Below, one piece after another: positions 106 to 55,299 of a stretch of DNA of 64,000 nt (the first letter of the stretch is position 1; every line of letters begins with the position of its first letter). The stretch comes from Marinicella marina. Its GTDB lineage: Bacteria > Pseudomonadota > Gammaproteobacteria > Xanthomonadales > Marinicellaceae. The stretch is taken from the NCBI RefSeq assembly GCF_030065545.1, contig NZ_JASJNC010000007.1:186001-250000 (forward strand), written 5' to 3'. Made by a program: the position numbers and the translations under genes. The notes under the pieces are model-generated. The model was not told the DNA's origin. It saw only the letters and a program-made list of their open reading frames with translations, and did not search any database.

Positions 106-2853
106 ATGAAAAGTAAATGGCTGGTTTTGATGCTGTTTTTGACAGCAAATGCCGTATCAGCTTCAGCAAAAAACAGCACAGATTTAACTGCAGCATTCAG
201 TGCGGCATTTGAGCGCCAGAAAACATTCGAATCAAAACTGCACCCCAACACCCAGCTGACCCAAGCCAAACAAATCAATCAAGATTTAATCATCACTTTT
301 AAATTCCCACCTGGTTACCTCGATAACGATTTCAACGAAGCCACCTTAGAGTTATTGAGCCGAATCATTGACCACGAAATGGACCATTTGGCACCTGCTG
401 CCAGACACATCCACTTTAACACCGCAGAAAACGGCCAATTCAAAGCTTTATCAAACTACCTCAAAATCACTCCTGTGCCGGAAAAAAATGATGACAAAGG
501 GCAAAAAACTTCACATAAATCAGGAATAACCACAGACTTGAGTGATAAGACCTTGTTCATCTCCCAGGCCCACGGTTGGATTGATTATGATGATTTTCGT
601 GAATGGTCCACCCAACGTGGTATCACCAATGACATTGTTGAAGACTTAGTCAATGCCGAGGGCATCAATCAATACTTATTGAAATACCTAGAAAATGCCG
701 GTGCTGAGGTGTTCACATTGCGCGAGCGAGACCTCAATCAAAACATGATCATTGTGGACAACGAGGATGCTAACTATCAGGAAGTGGGTAATGCAACATT
801 GTTCAACGACAGCAATGCCAATGGTTTTGCCAATAATCAAGCCCCTTACGGCTTCCTTACCGATCCTTTTCGTGACAATGGCGGCAGCGACCGCATCATC
901 AGCACCAGCGAGACAGCCACTGCCCAAGCCATTTGGACCCCAGATGTCACTGTCTCAGATTACTATGATGTTTATGTCTCCTACTCGGGTGTTGGTGATC
1001 GTCCCAGCGATGCCCATTACACCATCCGGCACGGTGGTATCGATACCGTCATGGTGGTTGATCAAACCAAACACCGCTATGTGTGGAATTATCTGGGCCA
1101 ATTTTATTTTGTAGCCGGTGGTAATCATGCCATCATCCTCAGTAATCAATCTTCAGAAAGCAACACCACAGTATCCGCTGATGCCATTCGCTTGGGTGGT
1201 GGCATGGGCGACATCATCGGCCAGAACAACGGCACCTTAAGCGGCAAACCGCGCTGGGAAGAAGGCGCTCGCACATGGGTTCAATACCAGGGAGCAACGG
1301 AATCGGTCTACCAATTTGGAGATGTCACCGCACGTTCACGATTTGCTGATTGGGAGCACTATGCCAGCGAAGATTCGTTGTACATATCCTGGCACTCCAA
1401 TGCAGCCAACGGCACTGCTCGCGGCACCAGCTCTTACATCTACTCAGCCAACCCACCAGATGGTACCTATGACATCACCCAAGCCCACCCAGGCTCAGCC
1501 GAGCTGCAAGACGCCATTCATGATGAATTGATCAATGACATCCGTGCTGGCTGGGATGCCAACTGGACCGACCGCGGCAAGCGCTCTGCTTATTTCGGTG
1601 AAATCAACCCCACCCACAATAATGAAATGCCGTCGTTATTACTGGAAATGGCCTTTCATGACAATCCAGCCGACGCCGATGCCTTGCGTCACCCCCAATT
1701 CCGCAAACTTGCCGCCCGTGCCATCTACCAAGGCATTGTTAAATACATTGCTGATCGAGACGGTGTCAGTTATACCCTGATACCAGAACCACCGACACAT
1801 CTACAGGTTACCTCAACTGTTGCTGGCACATTAGACATCCAGTGGCAGCCACCGCAGACAGATGCGGATGACTTAGCTGGTGATGCCGCTGCTGACTATG
1901 TGGTTTACTTGTCAGATGATGGTAAAAATTTTGACAATGGCACGCTCGTCAGCGGCTTGTCATTCTCCTTAAATGATGTGCCAGCTGGCAGCATCAAATA
2001 CGTCAAAGTCAAAGCCAAAAATGCCGGCGGCTTGTCTTTAGCCAGCGAAACTTTGGCAACCCGAATCAGCTACCCCAAAGAAAGTCGGGTTTTGGTGGTC
2101 AATGGCTTTGACCGTTTGAACTCAGGCCAACTGATCTACCAAAACATGGCCGATATTGGTGGTTTTGTTGATCGCATGTATTTGCATCAGATGAATACTT
2201 TTGATTATGTCATCCAACACGGCAGGGCCATTGATGATGCCGGCGTTGGTTTCGATGCCATCAGTAATGAATTGGTTGAGGACATGGACTTCAGTTTGGA
2301 TCCCAACTCATATGCAGCGCTGATCTGGATTCTTGGCGAGGAGTCCAGCGCTGGCAACACCTTAAACAGCAACGAACAAACCGCCCTGAACAATTACCTC
2401 AACGCTGGCGGCAAGTTATTCATCAGCGGCGCTGAAATAGCCTGGGATCTGGACTTTCTGGGATCGGCAGCCGACCAAGCGTTTTATAACAACACCCTAA
2501 TGACAGCCTACCAGTCTGATGATGCACAGACCTATTTTGCCCAAGGCGCAGCCGGTTCAATTTTCGCCAACTTACCACAGATTGAGTTTGATGATGGCAG
2601 CGGCGAGACTTATCAAGTCGATTACCCTGATGTGTTAACACCTTTGAATACAGCCAATGCTTGTCTGAACTACCTTAGCGACCAAGCCGCCTGCAGCTAT
2701 GTTGATACCGGCACCTACCAAGTGATTCACTTGGGCTTTCCCTTTGAAACCATCACCTCAGAGGCTGTGCGCCATGAGATGATGAGTGAGGCCATGAACT
2801 ACTTTGCAGTTCCCTATTTCAGTGATGTGATATTTGAAGATGGTTTTGAATGA
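106..2853 (+). CDS. exported N-acetylmuramoyl-L-alanine amidase with inserted golvesin-like domain, FN3 domain and GFE tail
   Basis: 915 residues. A signal peptide (about 1-21, ending near ANAVSASA) precedes a poorly defined N-terminal domain. An Amidase_3 fold starts near residue 150 (AHGWIDYDD) and resumes with SWHSNA near 428 and LLLEMAFHDN near 510, which supply the His/Glu zinc ligands typical of the family. Between the two halves sits an insert of about 170 residues resembling golvesin/xanthan-lyase CBD-like domains. A fibronectin type III domain (about 565-655) and a roughly 240-residue glutamine-amidotransferase-like domain follow, and the protein ends in DVIFEDGFE. The expected role is cleavage of peptidoglycan amide bonds outside the cytoplasm, for lysis of other cells or wall remodelling. 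Similar architectures are often labelled putative xanthan lyase, but polysaccharide activity is not shown by anything here. No strong ribosome-binding site precedes the ATG. Confidence 0.8.
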   Translation: MKSKWLVLMLFLTANAVSASAKNSTDLTAAFSAAFERQKTFESKLHPNTQLTQAKQINQDLIITFKFPPGYLDNDFNEATLELLSRIIDHEMDHLAPAARHIHFNTAENGQFKALSNYLKITPVPEKNDDKGQKTSHKSGITTDLSDKTLFISQAHGWIDYDDFREWSTQRGITNDIVEDLVNAEGINQYLLKYLENAGAEVFTLRERDLNQNMIIVDNEDANYQEVGNATLFNDSNANGFANNQAPYGFLTDPFRDNGGSDRIISTSETATAQAIWTPDVTVSDYYDVYVSYSGVGDRPSDAHYTIRHGGIDTVMVVDQTKHRYVWNYLGQFYFVAGGNHAIILSNQSSESNTTVSADAIRLGGGMGDIIGQNNGTLSGKPRWEEGARTWVQYQGATESVYQFGDVTARSRFADWEHYASEDSLYISWHSNAANGTARGTSSYIYSANPPDGTYDITQAHPGSAELQDAIHDELINDIRAGWDANWTDRGKRSAYFGEINPTHNNEMPSLLLEMAFHDNPADADALRHPQFRKLAARAIYQGIVKYIADRDGVSYTLIPEPPTHLQVTSTVAGTLDIQWQPPQTDADDLAGDAAADYVVYLSDDGKNFDNGTLVSGLSFSLNDVPAGSIKYVKVKAKNAGGLSLASETLATRISYPKESRVLVVNGFDRLNSGQLIYQNMADIGGFVDRMYLHQMNTFDYVIQHGRAIDDAGVGFDAISNELVEDMDFSLDPNSYAALIWILGEESSAGNTLNSNEQTALNNYLNAGGKLFISGAEIAWDLDFLGSAADQAFYNNTLMTAYQSDDAQTYFAQGAAGSIFANLPQIEFDDGSGETYQVDYPDVLTPLNTANACLNYLSDQAACSYVDTGTYQVIHLGFPFETITSEAVRHEMMSEAMNYFAVPYFSDVIFEDGFE

Positions 2854-2972
2854 TAAATGCTTGCTGAGCAACCAGTGGCACCTGAAACGTACATATTGTG
2901 ATATATATTTAAAACACAATATAGACATTGAAAACTTGGAACTATTTAAGCTTAATCAGTTCTATTGAATAT

Positions 2973-3590: not shown

Positions 3591-3682
3591 TAACAAACTA
3601 TTTTTTCACTGATGAAACCAAATAAACTTCCAAAAAATATTTTTGCACGCAAAATTGACAAGCTTGTTTTAAAATCCAAGCC

Positions 3683-14663: not shown

Positions 14664-16712
14664 TCAATCACAGGCAAAAGTGTCCAACTGTTGACCGATG
14701 TTGTTACCCGGGCTGCCACCCACTGCAGGCCCCTGGCTGTCAAACTGCGTGTCCTGATCTAAATTCAAGGTAGATGAGTCCAGACACACGATGCCTATTG
14801 CTGCACCACCAGCGCCACCACCGCCAGTACCACCATCGCCACCGCGTCCACCATCGCCGCCATCGCCACCACTTCCAGAATCATCTTCCGCATCACCACC
14901 AGGGCGACCAAAGCCTCCTCGACCTCCAGTCCCGGGGCTGCCACCATCACCACCGGCACCACCCAATGCATTGTTGATGTTCGATTGATTCACGGTGGCA
15001 TTTGAATTAACCAATCGCAAACCGATACTGGCACCACCACTCATACCACCTTCTGAACCTGAGCCACCACAACCGCCCGAGCCACCGCCACCACCGGCAC
15101 CACCATATGAATCACAGGCAAAAGCACCGCCGCCACCGCCACCGCCGCCACCGCCGCCCAGGCCATTAGCGCCGTTGGAACCGGTTTCACCCACCGTGAT
15201 GACGTAATTAGAGTTAACAAATTCGATGGCATTACTGGCAGGCTCGCCGTTACTGCCTGGTCCACCTGGGCTGCCACCATCAGCATCCCTACCGTTCCTG
15301 GTGTTTTGTGAACCATTACCAACACCAGCAGCACCACCATCACCACCGCCAGACAAGCCATCACCACCAGGAAAACCATTGTTTTCTCCCAATCCTGAAA
15401 GCCCACCTGTGCCGCCACCAATAAAAATACTGCAAGAGGCATTACCTGCCTGACCAACCGTTGGCCGGCTGCCTGAAGCACAACCAAAACCATCACTCTC
15501 AACACCATCACCACCAGCGGTACCATTAACACCGACAGCACCATTGGTACCATTACTTCCTCGAGTTCCATTGCCGCCATTACCGGAATTAAGTGCAACT
15601 TTTTCCAGTCTGATTTGATCGACATCTCGCACGGTCAAAGCATAACTGCTGGTTAATAATGGCGCATCATCAGCACTGTTGATGCGCAAATACTGATAGG
15701 TGTGCGGCTCCAGTGACAGCTCCAGCTGCAGGCCTTGATAGGGCACATCCAGCGTCGTTTCTATCGCTTGGATCCGGTTTTGAAATGCATTCACATAGCT
15801 CCCAGCCAGGTTCACACCAACGGGTAAAGCATTATTGAATTCATCACCATAAGAAAAATTACCCGCAGCCATCAACACCCAGCTTTTGTTCTGATCAAGG
15901 GCCAATTGAAAGGCAGCATCTGGGCTACCAATAGGATCATCTGCGCCCAAGCCTGAACCATTGCCTCCAACTGCCAAAAATACGCTATCAGTCACATCAC
16001 CATCTATGCCATCGCAGTTACTGTCAATAAAATTCAAATCGGGTAAATCCTCATTACCAGGAAACACATTGTTATTGGTGTCATTACAGTCGCTGTTATC
16101 TACCACATAACCAGCCTCGAGCTGGCAGGATGAGATGGCATTGAACGGATTGCCAAAGCCATCAACGTCATTGTCACTGTATTGAACAATGGGTTTTTTA
16201 CAAAATTCAAAACCATCAAAAAACAAAGGCGGTTCTGGTAGTTGACCGACTTCTCCTGCATTGTTGGTCGGTGAATTGGGCACAAACTCCAAGTTGCGAT
16301 TGAGCGCCAAAAATTCATCATCAGGTAAAATCAAAGGATCTATGACAAAAGGAGGATCGAAACCAAAAGCAATTGATAAAGTAGTTGAGTTAACATCGAA
16401 CAATGGCCCTGCCACCGTAAATAGTGGTTGTACCGAGCCAACTGACTGCACAAAACCCTGATCAGAGATGAGAAACTGTGTGGGCTCTGTTACCGCAAAT
16501 GGAATGATAATTTCTTTGGTGGTAAAATCATCAGTGATGGTGATTTGAGTGCCAACAATGTCTAATTGAGCGGTGTCAATATAATTAAACTCAATGTATT
16601 GCACGGTGCCAGCTTGATTGGAATAAACCTCATTGACAAACCAGCCATTATTTCCAAGCGCCATGGCATGGACGTTGAAAAACAGCATCCCAAATAAAAT
16701 CAGCTTCTTCAT
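14664..16712 (-). CDS. exported glycine-rich protein with lamin-tail-like and MopE metal-binding motifs (paralogue 1)
   Basis: 682 residues. A signal peptide (1-19) precedes a lamin-tail-like domain (WFVNEVYSNQAGTVQYIEF), then a GFE motif FFDGFEFC at 164-171. A MopE-type putative metal-binding stretch (about 178-239) runs from YSDNDVDGFGNP to DSNCDGIDGD. A pectate-lyase/DUF1565-like lead-in (VFLAVGGNGSGLGADDP) leads to a long Gly-rich region (about 375-640) with a run of ten glycines and the cysteine phrase AFACDSYGGAGG. The end is LDTFACD. A GGGGGA ribosome-binding site precedes the ATG. It is probably a surface or matrix protein; Ca2+ or Cu binding is inferred from the motif family only. 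The gene at 21737 is a full-length paralogue. Confidence 0.75.
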   Translation of the reverse strand: MKKLILFGMLFFNVHAMALGNNGWFVNEVYSNQAGTVQYIEFNYIDTAQLDIVGTQITITDDFTTKEIIIPFAVTEPTQFLISDQGFVQSVGSVQPLFTVAGPLFDVNSTTLSIAFGFDPPFVIDPLILPDDEFLALNRNLEFVPNSPTNNAGEVGQLPEPPLFFDGFEFCKKPIVQYSDNDVDGFGNPFNAISSCQLEAGYVVDNSDCNDTNNNVFPGNEDLPDLNFIDSNCDGIDGDVTDSVFLAVGGNGSGLGADDPIGSPDAAFQLALDQNKSWVLMAAGNFSYGDEFNNALPVGVNLAGSYVNAFQNRIQAIETTLDVPYQGLQLELSLEPHTYQYLRINSADDAPLLTSSYALTVRDVDQIRLEKVALNSGNGGNGTRGSNGTNGAVGVNGTAGGDGVESDGFGCASGSRPTVGQAGNASCSIFIGGGTGGLSGLGENNGFPGGDGLSGGGDGGAAGVGNGSQNTRNGRDADGGSPGGPGSNGEPASNAIEFVNSNYVITVGETGSNGANGLGGGGGGGGGGGAFACDSYGGAGGGGGSGGCGGSGSEGGMSGGASIGLRLVNSNATVNQSNINNALGGAGGDGGSPGTGGRGGFGRPGGDAEDDSGSGGDGGDGGRGGDGGTGGGGAGGAAIGIVCLDSSTLNLDQDTQFDSQGPAVGGSPGNNIGQQLDTFACD

Positions 16713-21736: not shown

Positions 21737-23797
21737 TTAATCACATTGATAAGTTTCTAAAATCTGACCGTCTTGACCAGATGGACTTCCTGAACCGCCA
21801 CTGCCTGCATTGGTAACATTGATTTGGGTGGCAACATCAACGTTCAGAGACGAACCGTCTAAACAGACCACCCCGATGACTGCACCGCCTGCACCGCCGC
21901 CACCATTGCCGCCGCTACCACCATCACCGCCATCGCCACCTGCTCCTCCTTCGCCGGAATCATCTTCATCACTGCCACCGCCCCGACCAAAACCACCCAA
22001 TCCTCTTTGACCGCCAAACCCGCCGCTACCACCATTACCACCATTTTGAGCATTAAAATTTGAGTTAACCACATCAACATTTGAATTGATCAGCCGCAAC
22101 GCTATGCTCGCACCGCCTCCAGTACCTGCCGAGCCTGCCGAACCGCCACAGCCTCCAGACCCACCGCCGCCGCCGGCACCACCATAAGAATCACAAGCAA
22201 AAGCACCACCGCCGCCACCGCCGCCACCGCCACCACCTCGACCGTTGCTTCCAGCAGTACCAGCGCTCCCAGATGAGGGTGAGAATTCATTATTTATAAA
22301 TTCAATGAAATTAATACCCCCAAGACCATTGGTGCCGGAATCTCCGTCAGTACCATTGCTGCCATTGCCTCCATCACGAGAAGACTGTCCACTGTTACCT
22401 ATACCACCGCCTCCACCGGCTCCGCCTATATTTTCTGCAGCTGACCCAGAGCTGCCATTACCTGAGCCAAGCCCGGCACTGCCTCCACGTCCACCCGCTT
22501 GATTGCATGCACTGACACCACCAGAACCCCTGGAAGGCGCAGAGCCAGAACTACAACTGAAACCATCATCGTTTTCAACACCACTGCCACCAGTGCCGCC
22601 ATTGTTGCCATTGATGCCAGCACTGCCGTCTGATCCATCAATACCGTTACCACCACTGCTGGCAATTAACGAAACATTTTGTAGGTTGACCTGCAAAGAA
22701 TCCTCAATCGTTAAGGCATAGTTTGTTGCTTCAGGTGGCGTTCCACCGCCACCGAAAAACACATTTTGATAGGTTTGACCAGCAGAGCCGCCAACCAATT
22801 TGGCCCCATGAAAAGGTGTGGAAAGGCGAGAATCATAATTAAAAGGATCGATGTGGCGATTCTCAAATTCATTGAGGTACTTGCCAGCCATGTTAACACC
22901 TGGTAACAAATCCGCATCATTAACAACACCAAAAGAATACACCCCTGAGCCCAACAGCAACCATTGCCTGTTATTATCAATGGCCAGTTGTTGCGCTGCA
23001 TAAGCATCGCCCATTGGGTCATCTGCTGTTAACCCGGATCCATCAGCACCTACTGCAACGAAAATACTGTTGGCCCTGTCACCATCAATGCCATCACAGT
23101 TACTGTCGATAAAATCCACATCTGGATCGTCTGAACTACTTGGATTAATTTGCGCATCATTGTCATCACAATCACTGGCATCTAAAACAAAGCCCGGCTC
23201 TAAGGCACATGAAGTTATTGAATTAAATGGATTGCCGGTTAAATCTTGGTCTGCATCCCGGTATTGAATGATTGGATTGCCACAAAACTCAAAACCATCT
23301 TGGAAAATTGGGCTTTCTAACAATTGCCCCTCCTCACCCATGTTGTTTGTTGGGCTATTAACCACAATGGCTTGATCAAAACTTATGGCAAGAAAATCAT
23401 CCTCGGGAAGTACCAAAGGATTCAGCTCGAATAAATCACCATCCATGTTGATGGTTAACATTGATGAAGAAGCATTGAAAATTGAACCTTGAATGATCAA
23501 ATCAGGAAGCACACTTCCTGGTGATTGTGAGAACCCTTGTGTGGCAATTAAATATTGAGTGGTATCAATAAAATCTGCTGGTATGACATAAACGCTATTC
23601 TGACCATCTGAATTAAATGCTATGACGCTGCCACCGATGTTTGCATTGGCATTCTCCCCAGCAACTATTTCAATGTACTGAACTGTGCCAGTCTGATTCG
23701 AATATATTTCATTCACAGACCAGCCATTCCATCCAGCACCAGATTGTGCCTGCGCACAGATAACCACACCAACAATGAATTGAACCAAATTTTTCAT
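21737..23797 (-). CDS. exported glycine-rich protein with lamin-tail-like and MopE metal-binding motifs (paralogue 2)
   Basis: 686 residues from the ATG at 23797, preceded by a GGGGGAAAG ribosome-binding site as in paralogue 1; a TTG seven codons upstream is not needed. Order: signal peptide, lamin-tail-like domain (WSVNEIYSNQTGTVQYIEI), IFQDGFEFC at 164-172, MopE-type motif (YRDADQDLTGNP to DSNCDGIDGD), DUF1565-like lead-in (IFVAVGADGSGL), and a Gly-rich region with a ten-glycine run and AFACDSYGGAGGGGG. It ends ILETYQCD. The Gly-rich cores of the two paralogues are nearly identical over long stretches, whereas the N-terminal domains have diverged, suggesting recent exchange or strong constraint in the core. 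Confidence 0.75.
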   Translation of the reverse strand: MKNLVQFIVGVVICAQAQSGAGWNGWSVNEIYSNQTGTVQYIEIVAGENANANIGGSVIAFNSDGQNSVYVIPADFIDTTQYLIATQGFSQSPGSVLPDLIIQGSIFNASSSMLTINMDGDLFELNPLVLPEDDFLAISFDQAIVVNSPTNNMGEEGQLLESPIFQDGFEFCGNPIIQYRDADQDLTGNPFNSITSCALEPGFVLDASDCDDNDAQINPSSSDDPDVDFIDSNCDGIDGDRANSIFVAVGADGSGLTADDPMGDAYAAQQLAIDNNRQWLLLGSGVYSFGVVNDADLLPGVNMAGKYLNEFENRHIDPFNYDSRLSTPFHGAKLVGGSAGQTYQNVFFGGGGTPPEATNYALTIEDSLQVNLQNVSLIASSGGNGIDGSDGSAGINGNNGGTGGSGVENDDGFSCSSGSAPSRGSGGVSACNQAGGRGGSAGLGSGNGSSGSAAENIGGAGGGGGIGNSGQSSRDGGNGSNGTDGDSGTNGLGGINFIEFINNEFSPSSGSAGTAGSNGRGGGGGGGGGGGAFACDSYGGAGGGGGSGGCGGSAGSAGTGGGASIALRLINSNVDVVNSNFNAQNGGNGGSGGFGGQRGLGGFGRGGGSDEDDSGEGGAGGDGGDGGSGGNGGGGAGGAVIGVVCLDGSSLNVDVATQINVTNAGSGGSGSPSGQDGQILETYQCD

Positions 23798-23918
23798 AAT
23801 ACTTTCCCCCTCAATCAATTTATTTCATCCAAGCGATATTAATCTTTCAAGGAAAACTTAAAACAGGATAGCTTAAAAAAACAGATTCTTCAAATTCTAG
23901 CCAGTTATAAACACCCTT

Positions 23919-25730: not shown

Positions 25731-27191
25731 ATGAAGAAAGCCTCCGCATTGATCATCATCAGCCTACTTTTGATATTCAGCCACAGCAATGAGGGCTTGG
25801 CAGGCGGCATTCCATTGACCACCAATGATGTGCTCACTGCTGCCATTAACAGCAATAACAGCCCATTGGATGTATTGAGTAACGACAACAGTGGCATCAG
25901 CAACGACAATTTCAAAGAGGTCGTTGCGGTTTGCGCCATTGGCACCAGTGACTTGGACTGTACCAACAACAGTTATACTGATGGCATCGGCACCGTCAGC
26001 GTCAACGGCTCAGGTAACGACAACAATGTGTTATTCGCATCCAACCACAACCAAACCCACACTTTTGAATTCAAATACTTGATGCAAAACAGTGCCAACA
26101 ACCAAAGTGCTGGCACAGTTAATCTGACGCTGACTTATTTTGAAGTGAACAGCCTCAATGATGGCGCTGAAAATGGCTGTGATGCCAGTGATTGCACCTT
26201 AAGAGAAGCCATGACAGCGGCAGAAAACGACAACCAGGCCTCATTGATAAACTTCAAACGCGATATGAATGGCACCATTGCACTGAACAATGGTCTTGTG
26301 GTTAATTCCAATGACCTCACTGTAGTTGGTACTGGGGCTGATAAAATCACCCTTTCGGGCAATGACCTATTCCGCGTACTTTCTATCCCAACAGGTACAG
26401 AGCGCTTCAGCCTTTCAGGCCTGACCATCGCCAATGGCCAAACGCCGAACCAAGGTAATGGTGGTGGCATATTAATAGAGTCAGCATTAGAAACCCGACT
26501 AGAAAACATCAGAGTCATTAACAATGTGGCAGAAAACAATGGCGGCGGTATTTTCACTGACAATGCGGGTTTGGTTTTAATCAACAGCGAAATCAGCAAT
26601 AACACAGCCAATAACCAAGGCGGCGGCATTGGTGTCTCAGGAGGTTTTGGCAGTGATGTCACCATTGAAAACACCACCATAAGCAATAACCAAGCCACCG
26701 ACGCTGCCACCAGCGGACTTGAAATCAACACCACCTTTGGACAAACCACCACCCTGAGGTTCATCACCGTTGCTTTTAACCAAGGGTTTAATGGTGTAGA
26801 CAGCAGCATTGATGGAACTGGTAACATCATCATTGATGCATCCGTATTTGAACCAGGTTTAGCCATCACCAATAACAACAACGTAACCAACAATTCCATC
26901 TTTCAAAGTCTGGCTGATGGCAGCATTTTTGGTGACAATAACCTCACAGAATTGGGCTCGGTATTGAACCAATCATTGGTTGAAATCAATGACTCAGGCT
27001 TATATGGTCATAAATTTGGTACTGGTGATTTACCATACAACCACGTCGATGACATGTTTGGCACGGCCAGCTGCGGTAATCAAGTCACTACAGACCAGTT
27101 TGGCACGCCTCGCCCCATCGATCAGTCATGTGATGCCGGAGCTTATGAATACATCTTCATTGATGTGATTTTTCAAGCCGGTTTTGAATAA
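25731..27191 (+). CDS. exported CSLREA-type parallel beta-helix protein with GFE tail
   Basis: 486 residues, signal peptide 1-25. The CSLREA-like signature appears as FEVNSLNDGAENGCDASDC followed by TLREAMTAAEND, and beyond it Asn/Gly-rich repeats (GNGGGILIES, NNGGGIFTDNAG, NQGGGIGVSG) form a predicted right-handed beta-helix of the kind found in polysaccharide-acting or adhesive exoproteins. The C-terminus reads IDVIFQAGFE. Function unknown; secretion is well supported. Its stop lies three bases from the stop of the convergent G8-domain gene. Confidence 0.75.
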   Translation: MKKASALIIISLLLIFSHSNEGLAGGIPLTTNDVLTAAINSNNSPLDVLSNDNSGISNDNFKEVVAVCAIGTSDLDCTNNSYTDGIGTVSVNGSGNDNNVLFASNHNQTHTFEFKYLMQNSANNQSAGTVNLTLTYFEVNSLNDGAENGCDASDCTLREAMTAAENDNQASLINFKRDMNGTIALNNGLVVNSNDLTVVGTGADKITLSGNDLFRVLSIPTGTERFSLSGLTIANGQTPNQGNGGGILIESALETRLENIRVINNVAENNGGGIFTDNAGLVLINSEISNNTANNQGGGIGVSGGFGSDVTIENTTISNNQATDAATSGLEINTTFGQTTTLRFITVAFNQGFNGVDSSIDGTGNIIIDASVFEPGLAITNNNNVTNNSIFQSLADGSIFGDNNLTELGSVLNQSLVEINDSGLYGHKFGTGDLPYNHVDDMFGTASCGNQVTTDQFGTPRPIDQSCDAGAYEYIFIDVIFQAGFE

Positions 27192-27194: not shown

Positions 27195-29768
27195 CTATTC
27201 AGCAAAATCATTGATGAAAATTAGATCATCTAAGACATTGATGGTGACATCGGCAACGCTGTAGTTGCCATTTTGATCGGTGACCCAATAGCGAAAATTA
27301 TCAATGCCTTGATAACCAAAATCTGAAACATAACTGACTGCGCCATTATCACGCATAAAAACCCGACCACGCTCTGGTTGTTGTATACCGTCAATCAGCA
27401 GCAAGTCATTTTCAGGGTCGCTGTCATTGACTAATAGATCCAACAAAATGGGTCTTTCTGAGGTCACTGTGAACAGATCATTGACTGCAACGGGTGGCAA
27501 ACTGTTTAAGTCGATGGAGCCGACTTCAAAAGCTTCCGACCAAGCGGTAAAAGGATCACCCAAAACACCATCCACTGCAGGCCCCAATAAGGTTTTTAAA
27601 CCCAGTTTATGAATTTCACCCGTGGCTCTGTTAGTAAAAAACTCCTCAATCACCGCATAGGGTGTGCCATCAGATGTCCTGAAATAACCATCCTCACTCA
27701 CCACAGCAATCATATCAAAGACCGGTACACCAACCTGGTCAGTCCCAGCTGGCACTGGCGTGGGTCCTATACTGTCAGTTTTGGTCCCCTGCCAATAAAC
27801 ACCGGAGCCAGCTGTGGTGGCAGGAGAAAGGAATTCATAATTGCCATTGTTGATAGATACTGCAAACTGATCAAGCTGCAAATCTGCTCCTTGTAACACC
27901 TGATCAAGCAGTGGATCAAAAAACTCATAATCTAAATTCACGTCCTCAAAAGTGGCATCAATAAGCACATATTGGTTGGTTTCTGGTGGCGGCACAGGCT
28001 CGGTATAATGCTTACTCAAAATCACTCCGATTGGCATGTTGCTGATGTGTGCCTGGTTAATCACCATGTCACTGGTATTGGTGCCAAACTCAATGCCAAA
28101 TGCGGCGGTACTGAAAGCCTCAGGTGTTTTACCAATGACATCAAAATCCTCTAACAGATAATGCGAGGTATACTCCATAGCCGCTCCCGCGCGGACCTCC
28201 CAGGCTTTGAACTTTTTAAAATGGCTGTGAATGTCATGTTGTTGGTTGGGGTTGGCTTTCACCACATACAACCCAACCGTTGAGGCAAAACTTTCATTGT
28301 CAGCAAAAGACAAAATGGGTGCATCATCCACACCAGACAGACCATTTCGAGTTAAGGCCTCAGGAAACATAAAAGCCGAACCTGGAAACGGCAACATGCC
28401 GCTGCCACGATGCAAATAAACGAACCCATGGTTGACACTCGCAGCAATGTTATTGATGCTCCTGACCATGCGACCTTGGAACCAGAAACCATCACCCGTG
28501 CGACCCATATCGAATAATTCACGGTCATTGCCATTTTTGGGATTGAAGGCGCTGTTGCCCTCAGCTTTGATTGCCAGATTATTCGACCAAGTACCAATTT
28601 CATTACCCGTTTCAGCCACAAACCCAGCACCAAATGTATCAAAAGAAACATTGTTATGAAAAATGGCATTGCTGTCATGATGCACATAGCCCCAACCAGG
28701 AGAGCCAAAAACAGCATTGCCTATTGCAATGGCTGGTTTTTCCTCATCGTTGATGCCTTTGCGGTGCAAATGAAAGGCATAACGACCACGCACATTACTC
28801 TCTGGCAGTATTACTTCAAAATCTTCAGCCTCCAGCGTCAAAAATGACTTGTCGGTGCGGCCCAGTTGCAAAAAAGAGGCATAACGAACATCAACAATGG
28901 ATTCTCCCATAAACATCACATGACCACGCTGATGGGTTGGTGTGGTTTCAGGTATTTGGGTGGCAAAGGTGATGTTCCTACTCATGTTCGCCACAGATGT
29001 TTTCAGGTCTTCACGAGGGGTTATGTGGTCGTACTGAAGGGCTGGTTCAAAAGATACCAAACCACCGTCAATGGCTGTAACAGTTACCACCTCATCTTGG
29101 GTGCCATGGTACCTGACAGCTTGAATTTGGTTGTCCCACTTCCACCCTGAAAATTTAGTTCCTGCAATCACCAAAACATCACCAACCCGCCAATTCAATG
29201 GTGTTTCAACCAATTGCAATGTTGTGTCACCTGAACGCGGGTCACTCGAGACTTTCATGTGTGGGGTCTTTTCCACACCATGTATCACCACATCACCCCT
29301 ACCCAATAAACCCCGGCCCATCAAGCTTGGGTCTTTCATAACATCCAGATCCCCATCATTGCTGAATAAGACATCTACATTGATGGCCGCTGGTATTGGA
29401 TTGTTTGCAGTACCAACAGTTAATCGCGCTGAGCCTTCAATCAATAAAGTATCAACTATCATTTGACTGGAGGAAGTCGTTGAAAATTTCAGGTGCCCAT
29501 CGACTTTGACTGCTTTGAGCACGTTGTTACTGACTTGGTCATAAACCAATTCGATCCCTGTTGGCACATGCACCCAAGCACCCTCACCAGGCACATTACC
29601 TCCTTGCCAATTGATTGGATTGAACCAAGAACCACTGACAACAGCGGTATGCGTTATGTCTTCATCATTGATCAATGCCCTTGTCATTGAGCTGTGATCA
29701 TGATCACCAGCAGCAACAACTTGAAAAGCACAAAAGATCAAAATACCACCAAAAATTTTATCAATCAT
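27195..29768 (-). CDS. exported G8-domain protein resembling CEMIP/PKHD1L1, with Ig-like C-terminal domain and GFE-like tail
   Basis: 857 residues, signal peptide 1-20, good AGGAG ribosome-binding site. A G8 domain covers about residues 35-160 (SGSWFNPINWQGGNVPGEG, then LKFSTTSSSQMIVDTLLIEG). A long beta-helix-like region follows, with phrases such as GRGDVVIHGVEKTPHM and FHLHRKGIND, known from vertebrate hyaluronan-depolymerising CEMIP/TMEM2 and their bacterial relatives. The end is a cadherin/Big_9-like repeat (PPVAVNDLFTV to VADVTINV) and the tail DDLIFINDFAE. A glycan-degrading or glycan-binding role is inferred from the family, not shown. Confidence 0.75.
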   Translation of the reverse strand: MIDKIFGGILIFCAFQVVAAGDHDHSSMTRALINDEDITHTAVVSGSWFNPINWQGGNVPGEGAWVHVPTGIELVYDQVSNNVLKAVKVDGHLKFSTTSSSQMIVDTLLIEGSARLTVGTANNPIPAAINVDVLFSNDGDLDVMKDPSLMGRGLLGRGDVVIHGVEKTPHMKVSSDPRSGDTTLQLVETPLNWRVGDVLVIAGTKFSGWKWDNQIQAVRYHGTQDEVVTVTAIDGGLVSFEPALQYDHITPREDLKTSVANMSRNITFATQIPETTPTHQRGHVMFMGESIVDVRYASFLQLGRTDKSFLTLEAEDFEVILPESNVRGRYAFHLHRKGINDEEKPAIAIGNAVFGSPGWGYVHHDSNAIFHNNVSFDTFGAGFVAETGNEIGTWSNNLAIKAEGNSAFNPKNGNDRELFDMGRTGDGFWFQGRMVRSINNIAASVNHGFVYLHRGSGMLPFPGSAFMFPEALTRNGLSGVDDAPILSFADNESFASTVGLYVVKANPNQQHDIHSHFKKFKAWEVRAGAAMEYTSHYLLEDFDVIGKTPEAFSTAAFGIEFGTNTSDMVINQAHISNMPIGVILSKHYTEPVPPPETNQYVLIDATFEDVNLDYEFFDPLLDQVLQGADLQLDQFAVSINNGNYEFLSPATTAGSGVYWQGTKTDSIGPTPVPAGTDQVGVPVFDMIAVVSEDGYFRTSDGTPYAVIEEFFTNRATGEIHKLGLKTLLGPAVDGVLGDPFTAWSEAFEVGSIDLNSLPPVAVNDLFTVTSERPILLDLLVNDSDPENDLLLIDGIQQPERGRVFMRDNGAVSYVSDFGYQGIDNFRYWVTDQNGNYSVADVTINVLDDLIFINDFAE

Positions 29769-31277: not shown

Positions 31278-34200
31278 ATGAAAAGAATGTTAATCAACGC
31301 GACCCACACCGATGAAATTCGTGTGGCTATCGCCGATGGTCAAAAACTCTACGATTTAGACATCGACTCGGCGGGACATTACCGCAAAAAAGGCAACATC
31401 TACAAAGCCAAAATCACCCGCATAGAACCCTCATTAGAAGCCTGTTTTGTCAATTACGGCTCAGAAAGACACGGTTTCCTGCCTTACAAAGAAATCAGCC
31501 CTGCTTATTGTAAACAAGCACCTCGAGGCAAAGCCAGACTACCCATCAATGAAGCCTTAAACGAAGGCGATGAAATCATTGTTCAAGTTAACAAAGAAGA
31601 AAGAGGCAACAAAGGGGCCGCACTGAGCACTTTTATTTCCTTGGCCGGTAGGTACCTGGTTTACATGCCCGGCAACCACCGTGCTGGTGGTATTTCCCGC
31701 CAAATCAGGGGTGAAAAAAGAACCCATTTACAAGACATCATGCGACGTTTGGAAATTCCAAAGAATGATGGGGTAATCATCAGAACGGCAGGTTTAGGCA
31801 GAACATTTGAAGAACTGCATTGGGACTTCAACTACCTGAAACAAGTATGGGAAGCCATTCAGTCAACAGCCAAACAGAAAAAAGGTCCATTCTTTATCTA
31901 CCAAGAAAGTGATTTATTCATCAGAGCGCTGCGAGACTACTTACAGCCTGACATTGGTGAGATTTTGATTGATGACCGTGAGTCTTACGAGAAGGCACGC
32001 GAATTCATGCAGCAAGTCATGCCGCACAACCTGAAAAAACTATCTTATTACAATGACAACACACCACTGTTTTCAAGGTATCAAATAGAACGCCAAATTC
32101 AGTCTGCCTTTGAACGTGAGGTCAAATTACCATCTGGTGGCGCCCTGGTGATAGATCAAACCGAAGCTTTGCTATCAATCGATATCAACTCAGCCAAAGC
32201 AACCAAAGGCATTGATGTAGAAACCACTGCACTGAACACCAATTTAGAAGCGGCTGATGAAATTGCCCGCCAATTAAAAATTCGTGATTTAGGTGGCTTG
32301 GTGGTCATTGACTTCATCGATATGCGCAACCACAAAAACCAGCGCGAAGTAGAAAACCGCATGCGAGATGCGGCTGAATCAGATCGTGCTCGCGTTCAAA
32401 TCGGTAAAATATCGAAATTTGGCTTGCTTGAAATGTCGCGCCAAAGATTGCGTTCATCGATTTCTGACTCAAGCCAAATCACCTGCCCTACTTGTGGCGG
32501 CCACGGTTACATCCGCTCCATGGAATCGTTGGTGATTTCAGTCATCCGACTGACTGAAGAAGAAATGATCAAGCCCAAAACGGGTCGCGTGGTCATTCAA
32601 GCTCCAGTTGAGACAGCCAACAAAATACTCAACGAAAAACGCACCGAATTGTCAGAAATGGAAAGTCGCCATGGTGTAGAAGTTTCAATCATTTCAAACG
32701 AAAACTTGAGCTTCCCAGATTTTCATGTACAACGCTTGAACACCAACGAATCTAACATCAACGTAGATGCCATTGAGCTGGTTAAACCTGAGGATTGTCA
32801 CAAACCAGTATCTATTGATCCACCTGCTCCAACGGTTGAGAGCCCGGCTTTAAGAATGGTTAAACCCGAAAACCAAGCACCAAAACGTTCTTTGGGCTTG
32901 GCCATCACATCGTGGTTCAAGGGTATTTTTGCTGGCAACAAAGAAAGCAACAAGAAAAAGCCTCAGAGAAAAGCACCACACAAGAAAAATCCTCACCAGA
33001 GAACAGCCAAAGGGGGTCAACAAAAAAATAACCGCAATCAAAAGCAAGGTGCTAAAAAGCCAACCCACCAAAAACAGAACAACAGGCAGCAGCCCAATAA
33101 GCAGCAGCAAAACAAACAACAACATAATAAGCAGCAGCCTAATAAGCAAAACAAAAAGAAACAGCCACAAAAAAACCAAAAACCTGTCAATCAAGCTGGA
33201 AAACCGGCGCAAAACAAGCAACAACCACAAAAAGCGCAGAACAAGAACCAACAGCAAAACCAAGCTGCAAACAATAAACAAGGCACTAAAAAAGTCAGCA
33301 ACAACAATAACAGCAACAACAATAACAGTGGCAACAAGAACCAAAACAACAAACCACAACAGCAAAAGGCCACTAAGTCGATTTATGGCAACAAAAATCA
33401 AAATCGTGGCAAAAATAATGAGACCAATGAGGGCAATAACAGCACAGTAGATGCCAAAAAGATGAGCCGCCCATTGGGCAGCGTTGCTGAATTGGCTGCC
33501 AAAAAAGAGCCCAAAGTGCCATCAGGTGCGAAAAAACCAAGACCCATTGACAGCATCAACGTAGAAGGCAAATCTTTACAAGACAATCAAGCCAACCAAC
33601 CTGTCAATAAGAAACCAGCTGATAAAAAACCTGTCGATAAAAAACCTGTCGATAAAAAACCTGTCGATAAAAAACCTGTCGATAAAAAACCTGTCGATAA
33701 AAAACCTGTCGATAAAAAACCTGTCGATAAAAAACCTGTCGATAAAAAACCTGTCGATAAAAAACCTGTCGATAAGAAACCTGTCGATAAGACACCTGTC
33801 GATAAGAAACCTGTCGATAAGAAACCTGTCGATAAGAAACCTGTCGATAAGAAACCAGCTGATAAGAAACCTGTCGATAAGAAACCGGCTGATAAGAAAC
33901 CGGCTGATAAGAAACCGGCTGATAAGAAACCGGCTGATAAGAAACCGGCTGATAAGAAACCGGCTGATAAGAAACCGGCTGATAAGAAACCGGCTGATAA
34001 AAAACTGGCTGATAAGCAACCAGCTGATAAGCAACCAGCTGAAAAGAAACCAGCTGATAAGAAACCAGCTGATAAGAAACCAGCTGATAAGAAACCAGCT
34101 GATAAGAAACCAGCTGATAAGAAACCAGCTGATAAGCAACCAGCTGATAAGCAACCAGCTGATAAAAAACCAGTTGATAAAAAACCAGTTGATAAAAAAC

Positions 34201-34283
34201 CAGCTGATAAGAAACCAGCTGAATCAAATATCACCGCGAAGATGATTAAGCCTGGTTTATACCAAGCCAAAAAGAAAGATTGA
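31278..34283 (+). CDS. rne: ribonuclease E
   Basis: 1001 residues. The catalytic half is canonical: S1 domain near 35-125, RNase H-like and 5'-sensor parts, the two metal Asp residues in LLSIDINSAKAT and VVIDFIDM, and a zinc-link CPTCGGHGYIRS. A membrane-binding amphipathic helix is likely at SLGLAITSWFKGIFAG (near 537-552). The C-terminal scaffold is Lys/Gln/Asn-rich (about 550-720) and then consists of 41 pentapeptides PVDKK/PADKK (775-979). It is the core endonuclease of mRNA decay and rRNA/tRNA processing. The start has an AGGA site. The repeat tail replaces the usual enolase/PNPase-binding region, and no recognisable degradosome motifs were found in it. Confidence 0.95.
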   Translation: MKRMLINATHTDEIRVAIADGQKLYDLDIDSAGHYRKKGNIYKAKITRIEPSLEACFVNYGSERHGFLPYKEISPAYCKQAPRGKARLPINEALNEGDEIIVQVNKEERGNKGAALSTFISLAGRYLVYMPGNHRAGGISRQIRGEKRTHLQDIMRRLEIPKNDGVIIRTAGLGRTFEELHWDFNYLKQVWEAIQSTAKQKKGPFFIYQESDLFIRALRDYLQPDIGEILIDDRESYEKAREFMQQVMPHNLKKLSYYNDNTPLFSRYQIERQIQSAFEREVKLPSGGALVIDQTEALLSIDINSAKATKGIDVETTALNTNLEAADEIARQLKIRDLGGLVVIDFIDMRNHKNQREVENRMRDAAESDRARVQIGKISKFGLLEMSRQRLRSSISDSSQITCPTCGGHGYIRSMESLVISVIRLTEEEMIKPKTGRVVIQAPVETANKILNEKRTELSEMESRHGVEVSIISNENLSFPDFHVQRLNTNESNINVDAIELVKPEDCHKPVSIDPPAPTVESPALRMVKPENQAPKRSLGLAITSWFKGIFAGNKESNKKKPQRKAPHKKNPHQRTAKGGQQKNNRNQKQGAKKPTHQKQNNRQQPNKQQQNKQQHNKQQPNKQNKKKQPQKNQKPVNQAGKPAQNKQQPQKAQNKNQQQNQAANNKQGTKKVSNNNNSNNNNSGNKNQNNKPQQQKATKSIYGNKNQNRGKNNETNEGNNSTVDAKKMSRPLGSVAELAAKKEPKVPSGAKKPRPIDSINVEGKSLQDNQANQPVNKKPADKKPVDKKPVDKKPVDKKPVDKKPVDKKPVDKKPVDKKPVDKKPVDKKPVDKKPVDKTPVDKKPVDKKPVDKKPVDKKPADKKPVDKKPADKKPADKKPADKKPADKKPADKKPADKKPADKKPADKKLADKQPADKQPAEKKPADKKPADKKPADKKPADKKPADKKPADKQPADKQPADKKPVDKKPVDKKPADKKPAESNITAKMIKPGLYQAKKKD
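33600..34214 (+). repeat. 41 tandem copies of a 15-bp unit within rne
   Basis: The units have the form CCTGTCGATAAAAAA or CCAGCTGATAAGAAA and encode Pro-(Val/Ala)-Asp-Lys-Lys. The variants occur in blocks: Val units with AAAAAA first, then Val with AAGAAA, then Ala with GGCT, then Ala with AGCT and scattered CAA (Gln) variants. Block homogeneity is what repeated slippage or unequal exchange leaves. The unit is a multiple of three without stops in most frames, which explains long open frames on the opposite strand. Confidence 0.97.
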
Positions 34284-51357: not shown

Positions 51358-51368
51358 ATGAACCAAAA

Positions 51369-52121: not shown

Positions 52122-52139
52122 CTAATGAACCCCTTATCT

Positions 52140-52152: not shown

Positions 52153-52278
52153 ATGCTATCACCCATAAAACCATCATTCCAGTACTGTTTCTGTACCCAG
52201 CAGTAAAAAAACTACACTGGATGTAAGCTGTTTGACTTTCATAAACTAAGGACACCATTAAACAACCAGGAAAATAAA

Positions 52279-52551
52279 ATGAAAAAATTTATTATCGAAA
52301 GAGACATTCCAAGTATCGGCACAATGGATCAAATCGCTTTACAAGCTGCTGCCGCTCAATCATGTGATGCGCTGAATAGGATTGGTCCGAAAATACAGTG
52401 GCTGGAGTCATTTGTTGCAGGCAATAAAACGTTCTGTGTTTATCTTGCAGAGGATAAGGCCTTGATCAGGCAACATGCTGAGTTTTCAGGCTTTCCAGCC
52501 AATCAAGTGACTGAAATTTTGAATACAATCAGCCCACTAACCGCTGGTTAA
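52279..52551 (+). CDS. DUF4242 (SCO4226-like) small protein
   Basis: 90 residues, no signal peptide, AGGA ribosome-binding site. MKKFIIERDIPSIGTMD and the late phrase HAEFSGFPANQVTEI are typical of DUF4242, a ferredoxin-like alpha/beta fold; a Streptomyces member binds nickel. Whether this one binds metal is unknown. It is divergent from, and likely regulated by, the HxlR-SCP2 protein. Confidence 0.8.
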   Translation: MKKFIIERDIPSIGTMDQIALQAAAAQSCDALNRIGPKIQWLESFVAGNKTFCVYLAEDKALIRQHAEFSGFPANQVTEILNTISPLTAG

Positions 52552-52578
52552 TTACGTATTATTGGGTATTAAATTCAA

Positions 52579-53733
52579 TCAGTTGATGTTATGTGCTTGT
52601 AATTCAAACAGCCAAGGCGAGTAAATCACTTCAATTTTTACTACCTTGGCCTGTTTTTTATCTATCCAGAAATATTGTGACGGGGCGCCACCGGCGTATT
52701 TAATTTTGTAGGTTTCAAAGGTGCCGGCTGGCACCGTTACCTGTTCTTCACCTTGGTATGAAATATCAATCAAACGTTGATCACCATCATAACCATTGAA
52801 CCAATTAATCAACAATGGCTGATCTGCTTTAACTGGCATCATATGGGCCAACATGAGGGTACTGGTTCGCTCTAATGTGTGCGCACTAAGTGAACGGTTC
52901 AGACTGATTTTTCCTTGTTGCTTGAACTTATCTCTGGGAATTTCGCTGTGACCTGTAACCAATTGATCCTGCCACATAAGCTCAATATCAACAGGACTTC
53001 CCATTGAACCATTCATGAATAAACTCATTGGTTGTAAATTTTCCTTACTGACCGTTGCTTTAATCACTGCATCGATTTCCATGTCTGCTATGCGGGTATG
53101 TTCTTGCAAAGCATAAACATCACCTTGTGCCTCAAACTGATGTTTGGATTGGCCAACCACATCGCCTTTGTATTTCATGTTGAAAATCAATTCACCAGTA
53201 AAAAAATGTTCATTCATCGGGGTGAGTTTTTGCCGTGTTTGTGTGGCTTTACTGGGAAGGCTTTTTAACACATTCAAACGGGCTTCATCAGCCGAAAAAA
53301 CAACTTGAAACAGGTTATCAAAATCTGATTCATCTAAATTAAATACTGGCTTGTTTGAGAGCATATGAGTCAACATTGGAGTGGTGTTGCTGTGGCCAAC
53401 AATCAAGGCGTTGCCTTTTTGTTTTTTTATTTCTGCAGCAAATGCCGTTAAGTCACTGGCATCATAGGTTTTCACTGTTGTGCCTAAATAGGTTGCCAGC
53501 GGTTTGGCTGTGAGCTGTGTGCGTTGGTAGTTGGTGGCATAGATGTGTTCGATGTTGGCAGCCGATAACATGTCAGCCAGGTTTTCGGCACGCTGTTGCC
53601 CTAGTGCGGTCAAAACCGGATCTTTACTGCCATCATTCGCTTTTTCTGCATGTCTGGTTAAATAAACTGTCTTCCCTGAAATCACTGGAGAAATCACAAT
53701 CATCACAACCAACAAAACCAAAACTTTATTCAT
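52579..53733 (-). CDS. exported histidine-phosphatase domain fused to a DUF3108-like domain
   Basis: 384 residues with signal peptide (MNKVLVLLVVMIVISPVISG). Residues 20-165 form a SixA/phosphoglycerate-mutase-like domain: the phosphohistidine motif TRHAEKAND and the second His in IVGHSNTTPM. From about 180 the chain is a beta-rich DUF3108-like domain ending VPAGTFETYKIKYAGGAP and YFWIDKKQAKVVKIEV. DUF3108 domains are periplasmic and of unknown role. Joining the two in one exported chain is unusual; the boundary near residue 170 is clean and no frameshift is evident. Confidence 0.75.
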   Translation of the reverse strand: MNKVLVLLVVMIVISPVISGKTVYLTRHAEKANDGSKDPVLTALGQQRAENLADMLSAANIEHIYATNYQRTQLTAKPLATYLGTTVKTYDASDLTAFAAEIKKQKGNALIVGHSNTTPMLTHMLSNKPVFNLDESDFDNLFQVVFSADEARLNVLKSLPSKATQTRQKLTPMNEHFFTGELIFNMKYKGDVVGQSKHQFEAQGDVYALQEHTRIADMEIDAVIKATVSKENLQPMSLFMNGSMGSPVDIELMWQDQLVTGHSEIPRDKFKQQGKISLNRSLSAHTLERTSTLMLAHMMPVKADQPLLINWFNGYDGDQRLIDISYQGEEQVTVPAGTFETYKIKYAGGAPSQYFWIDKKQAKVVKIEVIYSPWLFELQAHNIN

Positions 53734-53859
53734 GCCACACCCGATCTAAGAATACCTTGATTCTAGCAGCTTCAACATGCAAAGTAACATCACAAAAGTA
53801 ATGGATGCTTTGAAAACACGTGATAGAATTTATCTATTAAAATAAAAAAAGGGGTCACC

Positions 53860-55299
53860 ATGAGTAAGCTAATTTGTTTAATTCTTTTTGCATCGGCATC
53901 ACAAGCAGGTGGTATTGACCTCATTATCTCTCCCAACAACGGTCCGACTGCGGGAGGTAACACCCTCTTAATTGATATCATTGGTGACTTCAACGAACAA
54001 AGTTTCAGCCAAGTCTTTGTCGGGCAAAACGAATGCAGTAACGCACAAGTTTCAGGTAACACAGTGACTTGCACGGTACCACCTGGCACCGGTGATGCAG
54101 CAGTGCTTTTAATCAGTGACAGTCCTCAAAACACTGGTACCGGTAGCAACGTCTACAGTTATGATTCACCCGTGGTGTTCTCAGCCTTGCCAAATCAGTT
54201 GAATCAACAAGGTGGTGAAGTATTATCACTTACTGGGATTAATTTCGGCAGTAATCAAGCCCAAGTATTGGTTGGTGGTCAAGTTTGTAACACGCTTTTT
54301 GTCACAGACAGCCAAATTGACTGCCTTACCCCACCTGGCCAGGGCCAAAACCAACCCTTGACAGTGGTACAAAACAATGGCGCCGTTTCAGCCAGTTTTG
54401 CTATATCTTATGCTGATTGTCAGCCGGGGAATTTTTTAGATAACGGTCAATGTATCGCCTGCCCGCCTGGCCGGTTTCAAGACCAAGCCAATCAAACCAG
54501 TTGTGAGATTTGTCAGCCCGGCACTTTCAATGATATGGTAGGAGCTGCTTCGTGCCAACCTTGTTCAGTTGGGACCTTCAGTGCAACAGCAGGTGCGGTT
54601 CAATGCAATGCATGCCAAGTAGGCAGATTCCAAGACCAACCAGGACAATCTGAATGCCTGAATTGTGCCACCGGCACAATCAGCCCCAATATCGGCGCAG
54701 CCAGTTGCACCGCTTGTCCAGCAGGCACATTTTCCGATATCGAGGGTGGTATACAATGTAACTTATGTCAAGCCGGCGAATTTCAAAACCAAGCAGGTCA
54801 AGACAGTTGTTCGCTTTGCCCGCCTGGATTTATCAGCTCGGGTACGGGTAACCAAGCCTGTACAGCTTGTGCAGCCGGTTTCTTTGCTGCCAACTCGGGT
54901 TCAGAGTCTTGTACCGCTTGTAACGAAGGCACATTCCAAGATACAACCGGACAGTCCAGTTGTCAATCCTGTGCACCAGGGACTGTTGCGGCATCAACCG
55001 GCGCCGCAGCCTGCACTTTGTGCGCACCAGGGACTTACCAAAATGACATTGGCCAAAACAGCTGTTTCAGTTGTGATGCGGGAAGTTTCGCCCCATTCAG
55101 TGGCAGTTTAGCCTGCACGTTATGCCCAGCAGGTACGTTCCAATCTGAATTGGGACAAACCAGTTGTACATCATGTCCAGACAGTGAATTACAACCTGCC
55201 GAAGGCCAAACCCAGTGTCTCGGTCCTGGCCAATGCGATGCGTTATACGGCATCTTTTTCTCTGAATTCGAAGATAGGTCAGTAGACCCTGGAAACTGA
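53860..55299 (+). CDS. exported protein with two TIG/IPT domains and about 16 ephrin-receptor-like Cys-rich units
   Basis: 479 residues, signal peptide 1-16, GGGG ribosome-binding site. Two IPT/TIG folds (about 20-100 and 105-185) carry Cys pairs. From C187 to about C450 there are some 16 units of the form CxxGxF...GxxxCxxC, 17-18 residues each, matching the ephrin-receptor-like/GCC2-GCC3 repeats common in eukaryotic surface proteins. Units fall into a higher-order repeat of three (FQDQ..GQ, then GAASC, then FS..G), about 53 residues. The end, GIFFSEFEDRSVDPGN, contains a degenerate form of the GFE motif. It is likely a disulfide-rich cell-surface or secreted protein; role unknown. Confidence 0.75.
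   Translation: MSKLICLILFASASQAGGIDLIISPNNGPTAGGNTLLIDIIGDFNEQSFSQVFVGQNECSNAQVSGNTVTCTVPPGTGDAAVLLISDSPQNTGTGSNVYSYDSPVVFSALPNQLNQQGGEVLSLTGINFGSNQAQVLVGGQVCNTLFVTDSQIDCLTPPGQGQNQPLTVVQNNGAVSASFAISYADCQPGNFLDNGQCIACPPGRFQDQANQTSCEICQPGTFNDMVGAASCQPCSVGTFSATAGAVQCNACQVGRFQDQPGQSECLNCATGTISPNIGAASCTACPAGTFSDIEGGIQCNLCQAGEFQNQAGQDSCSLCPPGFISSGTGNQACTACAAGFFAANSGSESCTACNEGTFQDTTGQSSCQSCAPGTVAASTGAAACTLCAPGTYQNDIGQNSCFSCDAGSFAPFSGSLACTLCPAGTFQSELGQTSCTSCPDSELQPAEGQTQCLGPGQCDALYGIFFSEFEDRSVDPGN

Follow-up and report, generated by a model that had tools for sequence, protein, structure and literature searches.

What do exported proteins of unrelated folds have in common at their ends? The question is raised by a 64,000-nucleotide stretch of the Marinicella marina genome (contig NZ_JASJNC010000007.1, positions 186,001 to 250,000; referred to below as the window), in which a sequence-only reading had picked out an F-x-x-G-F-E motif in six proteins and had considered that it might sort them. 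The analysis reported here indicates that the motif is probably a short C-terminal sorting tag for proteins handled by one module of the type II secretion system (T2SS), which is encoded by a gspC-gspD-gspE cluster and has a GspC with a PDZ domain.

The tag was searched for as F-x-x-G-F-E followed by a TAA or TGA stop codon, with the same pattern read backwards as the control. In the source genome (3.46 Mb), 21 open reading frames (ORFs) end in the motif and none ends in the reversed pattern. The source-genome form can be written [DE]-[LVI]-I-F-x-x-G-F-E, with a core of [ILV]-F-x-[DN]-G-F-E in which the fourth position from the end is mostly, not always, D or N. These preferences come from tail sets in which only F, G, F and E were fixed by the pattern and the other positions were free. 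Among the 21 source-genome tails, position -9 is acidic (D or E) in 20, position -7 is I in 20 and one of I, L and V in all 21, and position -4 is D or N in 14. For G046, a genome from another family, 28 of the 41 matches were used and gave 29 tails, of which 27 have L, V or I at -7 and 27 have N or D at -4, with no fixed residue at -9. In the 30 tails of four further genomes (G471, G575, G492 and G518), position -7 is always I, V or L, and position -4 is D or N in 23. Upstream of -9, no conservation was seen across 130 tails, a set whose logo is biased at the pattern positions, as most loci had been picked by using the tag pattern.

The end of the protein does not always coincide with the end of the tag. 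Five proteins carry it in tandem (L050, L077, L132 and L159, which are mutually alike, and L146), whereas in L005, L008, L012, L017 and L046 it is followed by a few residues; over all cases, 1 to 12 residues trail the tag. A long form, IFxDGFESG..S.W plus a few residues, occupies the extreme end of L164-L169, L171 and L180, and L163 has a similar string at the start of a longer stretch for which Pfam and NCBIfam gave no significant match. A separate observation concerns L111 (6618-7877, minus strand) of a Dokdonella metagenome-assembled genome, for which NCBIfam gave no match: here the tag lies 90 residues ahead of the end and is followed by a terminal hydrophobic stretch and a basic cluster, so that the protein looks like a carrier of two sorting signals.

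The tag is found preferentially on exported proteins. A start is visible for 16 of the 21 tagged source-genome ORFs, the other five running off the stretch, and all 16 look exported (15 by script and L183 by eye); by the same rule, only 12 of 44 untagged window ORFs do so, membrane proteins included (Fisher p 2e-7), in agreement with the earlier statement that cytoplasmic proteins lack the motif. The rule was passed by 20 of the 26 visible starts of G046 and by 9 of the 11 starts visible in the four further genomes. A first version had been too lenient (252 of 577 untagged and 81 of 92 tagged ORFs passed), and the stricter one was used for all counts given here. One of the 16 source-genome proteins, L187, combines a twin-arginine signal with DUF1501, and the start of L303 is of the twin-arginine translocation (Tat) type by eye.

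The tag is also independent of fold, as had been claimed from the window alone: an alignment of 111 of the 122 tagged tails (eleven were excluded) has a mean column identity of 8%, and the folds are unrelated. When NCBIfam matches to these 111 C-termini were counted at E values up to 10, the families included choice-of-anchor Q (24), myxosortase-dependent M36 (6), rhombosortase-dependent M36 peptidases (5) and ExeM/NucH nucleases (3); the NCBIfam and Pfam matches together also covered choice-of-anchor J and D, the Mep72 and CpaA metalloproteases, Endonuclease I, a cellulase, a subtilase and others. Several of these families, judged by their NCBIfam names, bear other C-terminal signals elsewhere, a kind of signal swap. 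No C-terminal signal model was present among the families listed for the tails (25 of 34 and 25 of 74 in NCBIfam, 25 of 45 in Pfam), which is in line with the view that the signal has no name, with the limit that a nine-residue model would score weakly in such searches. Nor does any Pfam or NCBIfam best stretch among those listed for the six window proteins reach the motif at the tagged ends. The tails that were read end with the motif itself and have no helix or basic cluster after it, as first described, so that the signature of GlyGly-CTERM, PEP-CTERM or MYXO-CTERM is absent; a folded domain like that of the type IX secretion system (T9SS) was not found either, given the lack of conservation beyond -9. 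In the model of the window amidase, which is weak (mean predicted local distance difference test score, pLDDT, 58), residues 900-915 have no secondary structure and residues 907-915 have a pLDDT below 50.

The tag is nearly confined to one bacterial order, Lysobacterales. A class-wide search of 369 genomes with F-x-[DN]-G-F-E-stop (codon pattern RAY) covered 364 outside the order, of which 24 had one or two matches and none had more, while within the order the F-x-x-G-F-E-stop pattern gave from 0 to 48 matches per genome. Matches were found in 51 of 61 genomes, the source genome included, and in G471, G575, G492 and G518 an ORF ending in the tag was present at 29 of the 30 loci taken from 56 matches in all. 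The named genomes among the 80 records listed are mostly Marinicella, Dokdonella, Pseudofulvimonas and other Lysobacterales. Three of these records are labelled otherwise (L071 as Bacillota, L127 as a planctomycete and L074 as Alcanivoracaceae) and come from draft or metagenome genomes; of the three, only L074 yielded a tagged ORF. G041, of family f10, has no match by the stop pattern, yet it contains long forms (L163 and L180).

Which machine might read such a tag was approached through the T2SS. With TIGR02517 as the search model, GspD scored above the cut-off in 56 of the 61 genomes, many of which, like the source genome, have two classes, and a tree of 39 GspD proteins from 23 genomes split classes A and B with full support. 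Class B belongs to an Xps-like operon (L251 in the source genome), in which NCBIfam recognizes GspE, GspM, XpsN and GspD with other genes of the expected kind between them. Class A is a compact gspC-gspD-gspE cluster, adjoined by gspF in the source genome and G492 and lying near ftsEX in the source genome and G518. For G018 and G033, which carry no tags, no GspD reached the cut-off, and the tag-poor G039, G049, G057, G052 and G044 have only a class B GspD. The T2SS in general was therefore rejected as the partner, because the Xps-like system is also present in tag-poor genomes and only class A tracks the tag.

The class A GspC does co-occur with the tag, which answers the earlier proposal to test for co-occurrence with a dedicated protease or secretion gene. 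A profile (A2) built from three genomes was searched in 249 genomes of the order that were at least 85% complete, a match with E below about 1e-12 being scored as positive; the 17 genomes with no row in the search were counted as negative, and so were six borderline ones (G585, G595, G613, G469, G532 and G568), two of which pass the E value. At least two tags were present in 69 of 96 genomes with the class A GspC versus 5 of 153 without it (Fisher p 1e-32, this value, like the other Fisher values given here, ignoring phylogeny), and, at the genus level, in 28 of 35 versus 1 of 48. The co-occurrence recurs in several separate lineages: in f12 (65 genomes), 7 of 7 GspC genomes, from 4 of 22 genera, are tagged versus 0 of 58, and in f2 (67 genomes), 2 of 2, from 2 of 20 genera, versus 0 of 65. 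Under a looser rule that takes the borderline genomes as positive, the association is somewhat weaker, with 7 of 10 versus 0 of 55 in f12 (p 1.7e-7) and 2 of 3 versus 0 of 64 in f2 (p 0.0014). Class A GspC is near-necessary for the tag, but not sufficient.

The neighbourhood of the tagged genes was also searched for a partner. When 841 ORFs from tag loci were clustered, no evident protease or receptor was seen by eye among the clusters recurring in at least 4 loci (no genome-wide protease search was made), and the recurrent clusters did not offer a partner gene; they consist of tagged families and others, such as a pair of genes resembling an extracytoplasmic function (ECF) sigma factor and a serine/threonine kinase. 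By eye, L057, L084, L122, L124, L140 and L142 each have this pair only a few kb away from a tagged gene, and the pair is also present at the source-genome loci L006 and L009, while L118 has only the kinase and L092 and L093 only the sigma factor near tagged genes. The pair may regulate the tagged genes, or it may merely be a numerous pair of paralogues.

In the window, all the sites reported in the sequence-only reading are there, but they do not form one uniform set, because two are canonical, two are internal copies and two are degenerate (Table 1). The exact motifs of the amidase and the CSLREA protein and the close variant of the G8 protein were read directly at the ends of these proteins. 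The internal copies of the two Gly-rich paralogues had been placed at about 164-172 in both; they are present, although at residues 164-171 in the protein encoded by 14664-16712 (FFDGFEFC) and at 171-179 in that encoded by 21737-23818 (IFQDGFEFC, numbered from the TTG start). Likewise, IFFSEFED does occur near the end of the Cys-rich protein, but 7 residues follow it and not 12. The signal peptides attributed to all six were borne out by a signal-peptide-like start seen by eye in each, and by script as well for the amidase and the CSLREA protein. None of the other 45 ORFs listed for the window has the motif at its end.

Table 1. Motif sites in the window and the genes that carry them
Feature	Positions	Strand	Gene or remark
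Canonical C-terminal tag DVIFEDGFE	2824..2850	+	End of amidase gene 106-2853
N-acetylmuramoyl-L-alanine amidase, exported, tagged	106..2853	+	Amidase_3, Golvesin_C and a weak Fn3-like match (Pfam)
Internal copy PLFFDGFE	16206..16229	-	Between LTD-like domain and MopE/Gly-rich part, gene 14664-16712
Internal copy PIFQDGFE	23288..23311	-	Gly-rich paralogue, gene 21737-23818
Exported CSLREA protein	25731..27191	+	Choice-of-anchor Q match at residues 450-474, tag at 478-486 (NCBIfam)
Canonical C-terminal tag DVIFQAGFE	27162..27188	+	End of CSLREA gene 25731-27191
Degenerate tag DLIFINDFAE	27198..27227	-	End of G8 / Big_9 protein, gene 27195-29768
Variant IFFSEFE	55252..55272	+	8 residues ahead of the end of the Cys-rich TIG/ephrin-repeat protein, gene 53860-55299

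The CSLREA model itself scores 24.3 bits in this gene, just below the 25-bit cut-off of NCBIfam. As to the Cys-rich protein, it is a bacterial exported protein in which, by Pfam, TIG domains are followed by eight ephrin-receptor-like Cys-rich stretches. Elsewhere in the window, 31278-34283 encodes a large protein whose C-terminal end is made of repeated DKKPV units.

Relatives of these proteins retain the motif to different degrees. The tail of the amidase is kept, with some drift, in eight aligned relatives and in a ninth, L232; identity to the window protein is 75% in the last nine residues versus 46% in the preceding 20, and in the nine rows D, I, F and F are invariant while G varies. Relatives of the Cys-rich protein in four genomes (L234, L235, L236 and L237) have its variant at the corresponding site, in the form [IL]F-x-[SA]-[EQ]-F-[EK]. 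The Gly-rich paralogues are built from an LTD-like domain, the motif, and then the MopE-like and Gly-rich parts, and L246, from family f5, corresponds to the LTD-like part alone and ends VFASGFESPPVTAVQAP. Because this LTD-like-only relative ends in the motif, the internal copy is best read as a former C-terminus that predates a fusion; the same copy persists inside several relatives of the pair, a survival that the fusion reading does not explain.

The T2SS is the machine known to move proteins that have been exported by Sec or Tat and have folded over the outer membrane. Most tagged proteins with a visible start have a Sec- or Tat-like signal, and the source genome and most other tagged genomes encode a T2SS, which is what such cargo should look like. 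In the proposed route, Sec or Tat would take the cargo through the inner membrane, and the cargo would fold in the periplasm, its tag remaining accessible as a flexible tail. The class A module would then bind the tag through its GspC, its GspD or both, steering the folded periplasmic cargo to the class A T2SS and not to the second, Xps-like one, and the bound cargo would leave through the former, either to be released or to stay on the surface. The simplest contact would be one in which the tag joins, as an added strand, either the GspC PDZ domain or GspD. The export signals, the co-occurrence and, from one weak model, the unstructured tail are results of the analysis, whereas the binding and the route we infer, and the link between tag and T2SS is one of genome co-occurrence only.

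The structure predicted for the class A GspC (mean pLDDT 77, predicted template modelling score 0.38) has HR and PDZ domains as well as a membrane helix. In a fold search, the EpsC PDZ domain takes the first two places among solved structures, ranks 4 (a GspC-GspD complex) and 11 (the PulC HR domain) are taken as matches of the HR part, and structures of DegS with YxF peptides are also among the matches. A PDZ ligand offers the PDZ groove a free C-terminal carboxylate next to a hydrophobic residue; many tags end exactly at E and others are extended or internal, and the PDZ fold of GspC is supported. For known cargo, the available parts of two reports describe that the EpsC PDZ domain is required for VesB and captured a chimera bearing the VesB Ig fold (PMC12369372), and that PelI has a loop of nine residues that works as a signal together with GspC and GspD (PMC7949064). 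In both VesB/EpsC and PelI/OutC, as in the present proposal, a PDZ-bearing GspC takes part in the choice of cargo; however, those signals sit in folded Ig/Fn3 domains of single proteins, and the same parts of the two reports name no common linear tag (PMC12369372, PMC7949064). A review, in the portion available, calls T2SS cargo recognition unresolved (PMC10128026). The broader idea, that the tag is a general linear T2SS signal of 7-9 residues, read on dozens of unrelated Sec/Tat cargos by the one T2SS subclass with the PDZ-bearing GspC, by which a cell with two T2SSs routes its cargo and which evolves as a swappable module, has in our judgement about an even chance of being right.

Several observations weigh against a tag read by the class A module. 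G014, G015 and G030 are tagged and have no GspD above the cut-off, their assemblies being in 310-470 contigs; G014, G439, G451, G488 and G532 have at least two tags and no counted GspC; and G053 has a class-A-like GspD with neither class A GspC nor tag. Family f8, taken alone, is not significant (2 of 5 versus 2 of 25, p 0.12), a divergent GspC occurs in 29 genomes of f9, only 7 of which have at least two tags, and two f7 genomes with the class A GspC, G038 and G048, have 0 and 2 tags; perhaps f9 and f7 hold a divergent tag, which would explain the few matches, or else they use the module differently. Six starts of G046 fail the export rule, and although four of them look late-called by eye, L207 and L220 do not. 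No pseudopilin, gspL or gspM was recognized beside the class A cluster, as judged by eye at L250 and by BLAST against the Xps-like operon of the source genome at L322, L323 and L326, no search being made elsewhere in the genomes; the class A module may borrow these components. The 1-12 trailing residues and the internal copies fit badly with a PDZ pocket that needs a free C-terminus, and because of them a strict binding of the free carboxylate is disfavoured. Finally, some other co-inherited gene could be the true partner.

Other explanations share part of this evidence. The tag might act after passage of the outer membrane, as a surface anchor for proteins delivered by the T2SS, or be processed there like GlyGly-CTERM in Vibrio. 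We hold this unlikely, although it has a precedent in VesB, whose GlyGly-CTERM tail, according to the available part of the report, is dispensable for secretion and needed for location at the surface (PMC12369372), and although tagged families share names with GlyGly-CTERM and MYXO-CTERM families and include choice-of-anchor domains; the tails, however, showed neither a hydrophobic helix nor a basic cluster when read, some proteins continue for a few residues after the tag, and the recurrent neighbours contain no evident protease, within the limits given above. Another receptor or protease that was inherited together with the gspC-D-E module might read the tag, making the T2SS correlation indirect. 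This, too, appears improbable: it would agree with an association that holds at the genome level and with the many f9 genomes (most of them) that have GspC yet no or few tags, but the established function of the T2SS suits the tagged set, and the tag and the module vary in step in f1/g2, two f2 genera and four f12 genera, and to some extent in f8.

A purely structural role is very unlikely. The motif would then be a structural element spread by recombination, either a strand that caps a fold or the strand with which a jelly-roll-like domain begins (GFE[ST]GDxSxW...), as the long C-terminal forms (such as L180), the one case that continues into a longer domain (L163) and the internal copies retained in several relatives might suggest; nevertheless, many copies stop at E, the carrier folds are unrelated, the tail in the weak amidase model has no secondary structure, and the tag tracks a secretion module and lies mostly on exported proteins. 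Chance or base composition, which could account for the sparse matches outside the order and for single matches in 20 of the 58 f12 genomes that lack GspC, is already refuted by the source-genome count against the reversed pattern and by the numbers per genome reached in relatives.

C-terminal sorting tags paired with one machine are already known as a kind, and a tag handled by a single T2SS module would be a further form of it. The C-terminal domains of the T9SS, in Bacteroidota, are folded and of about 70-100 residues; like the proposed tag, they are C-terminal signals that take Sec-exported proteins over the outer membrane, but they are far longer than its 7-9 residues. The PDZ domain of DegS reads the C-termini of outer-membrane proteins as a misfolding alarm on beta-barrels, and it resembles the proposal in joining a periplasmic PDZ domain to a short aromatic C-terminal peptide, whereas the FxxGFE tag ends in an acidic E and sits on soluble exported proteins. 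A further likeness is to GlyGly-CTERM/rhombosortase (TIGR03501), also a recurrent tail on many unrelated exported proteins, some of families that are the same by name, in species that, as far as the available text goes, generally have a T2SS (PMC3237569). Its tail, unlike the present one, is composed of a motif, a transmembrane helix and a basic cluster and has an intramembrane protease as its partner, and in that text rhombosortase was not found to be associated with any one T2SS subclass (PMC3237569), whereas the FxxGFE tag is linked to one. MYXO-CTERM/myxosortase, again from the part of the report available, likewise places a common C-terminal sorting tag on dozens of proteins per genome, but with a tripartite tail, an invariant Cys and an occurrence in another phylum (PMC11980579); some M36 families are common to both by NCBIfam name. 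A short tag linked to a T2SS subclass and having neither helix nor charge cluster is absent from the families listed and from the titles and abstract openings of the literature found.

If the tag is truly tied to one T2SS subclass, the cargo of that subclass would become predictable from sequence, and the recognition step of the T2SS would become testable through peptides and tag swaps. It would also provide a portable secretion tag for folded proteins.

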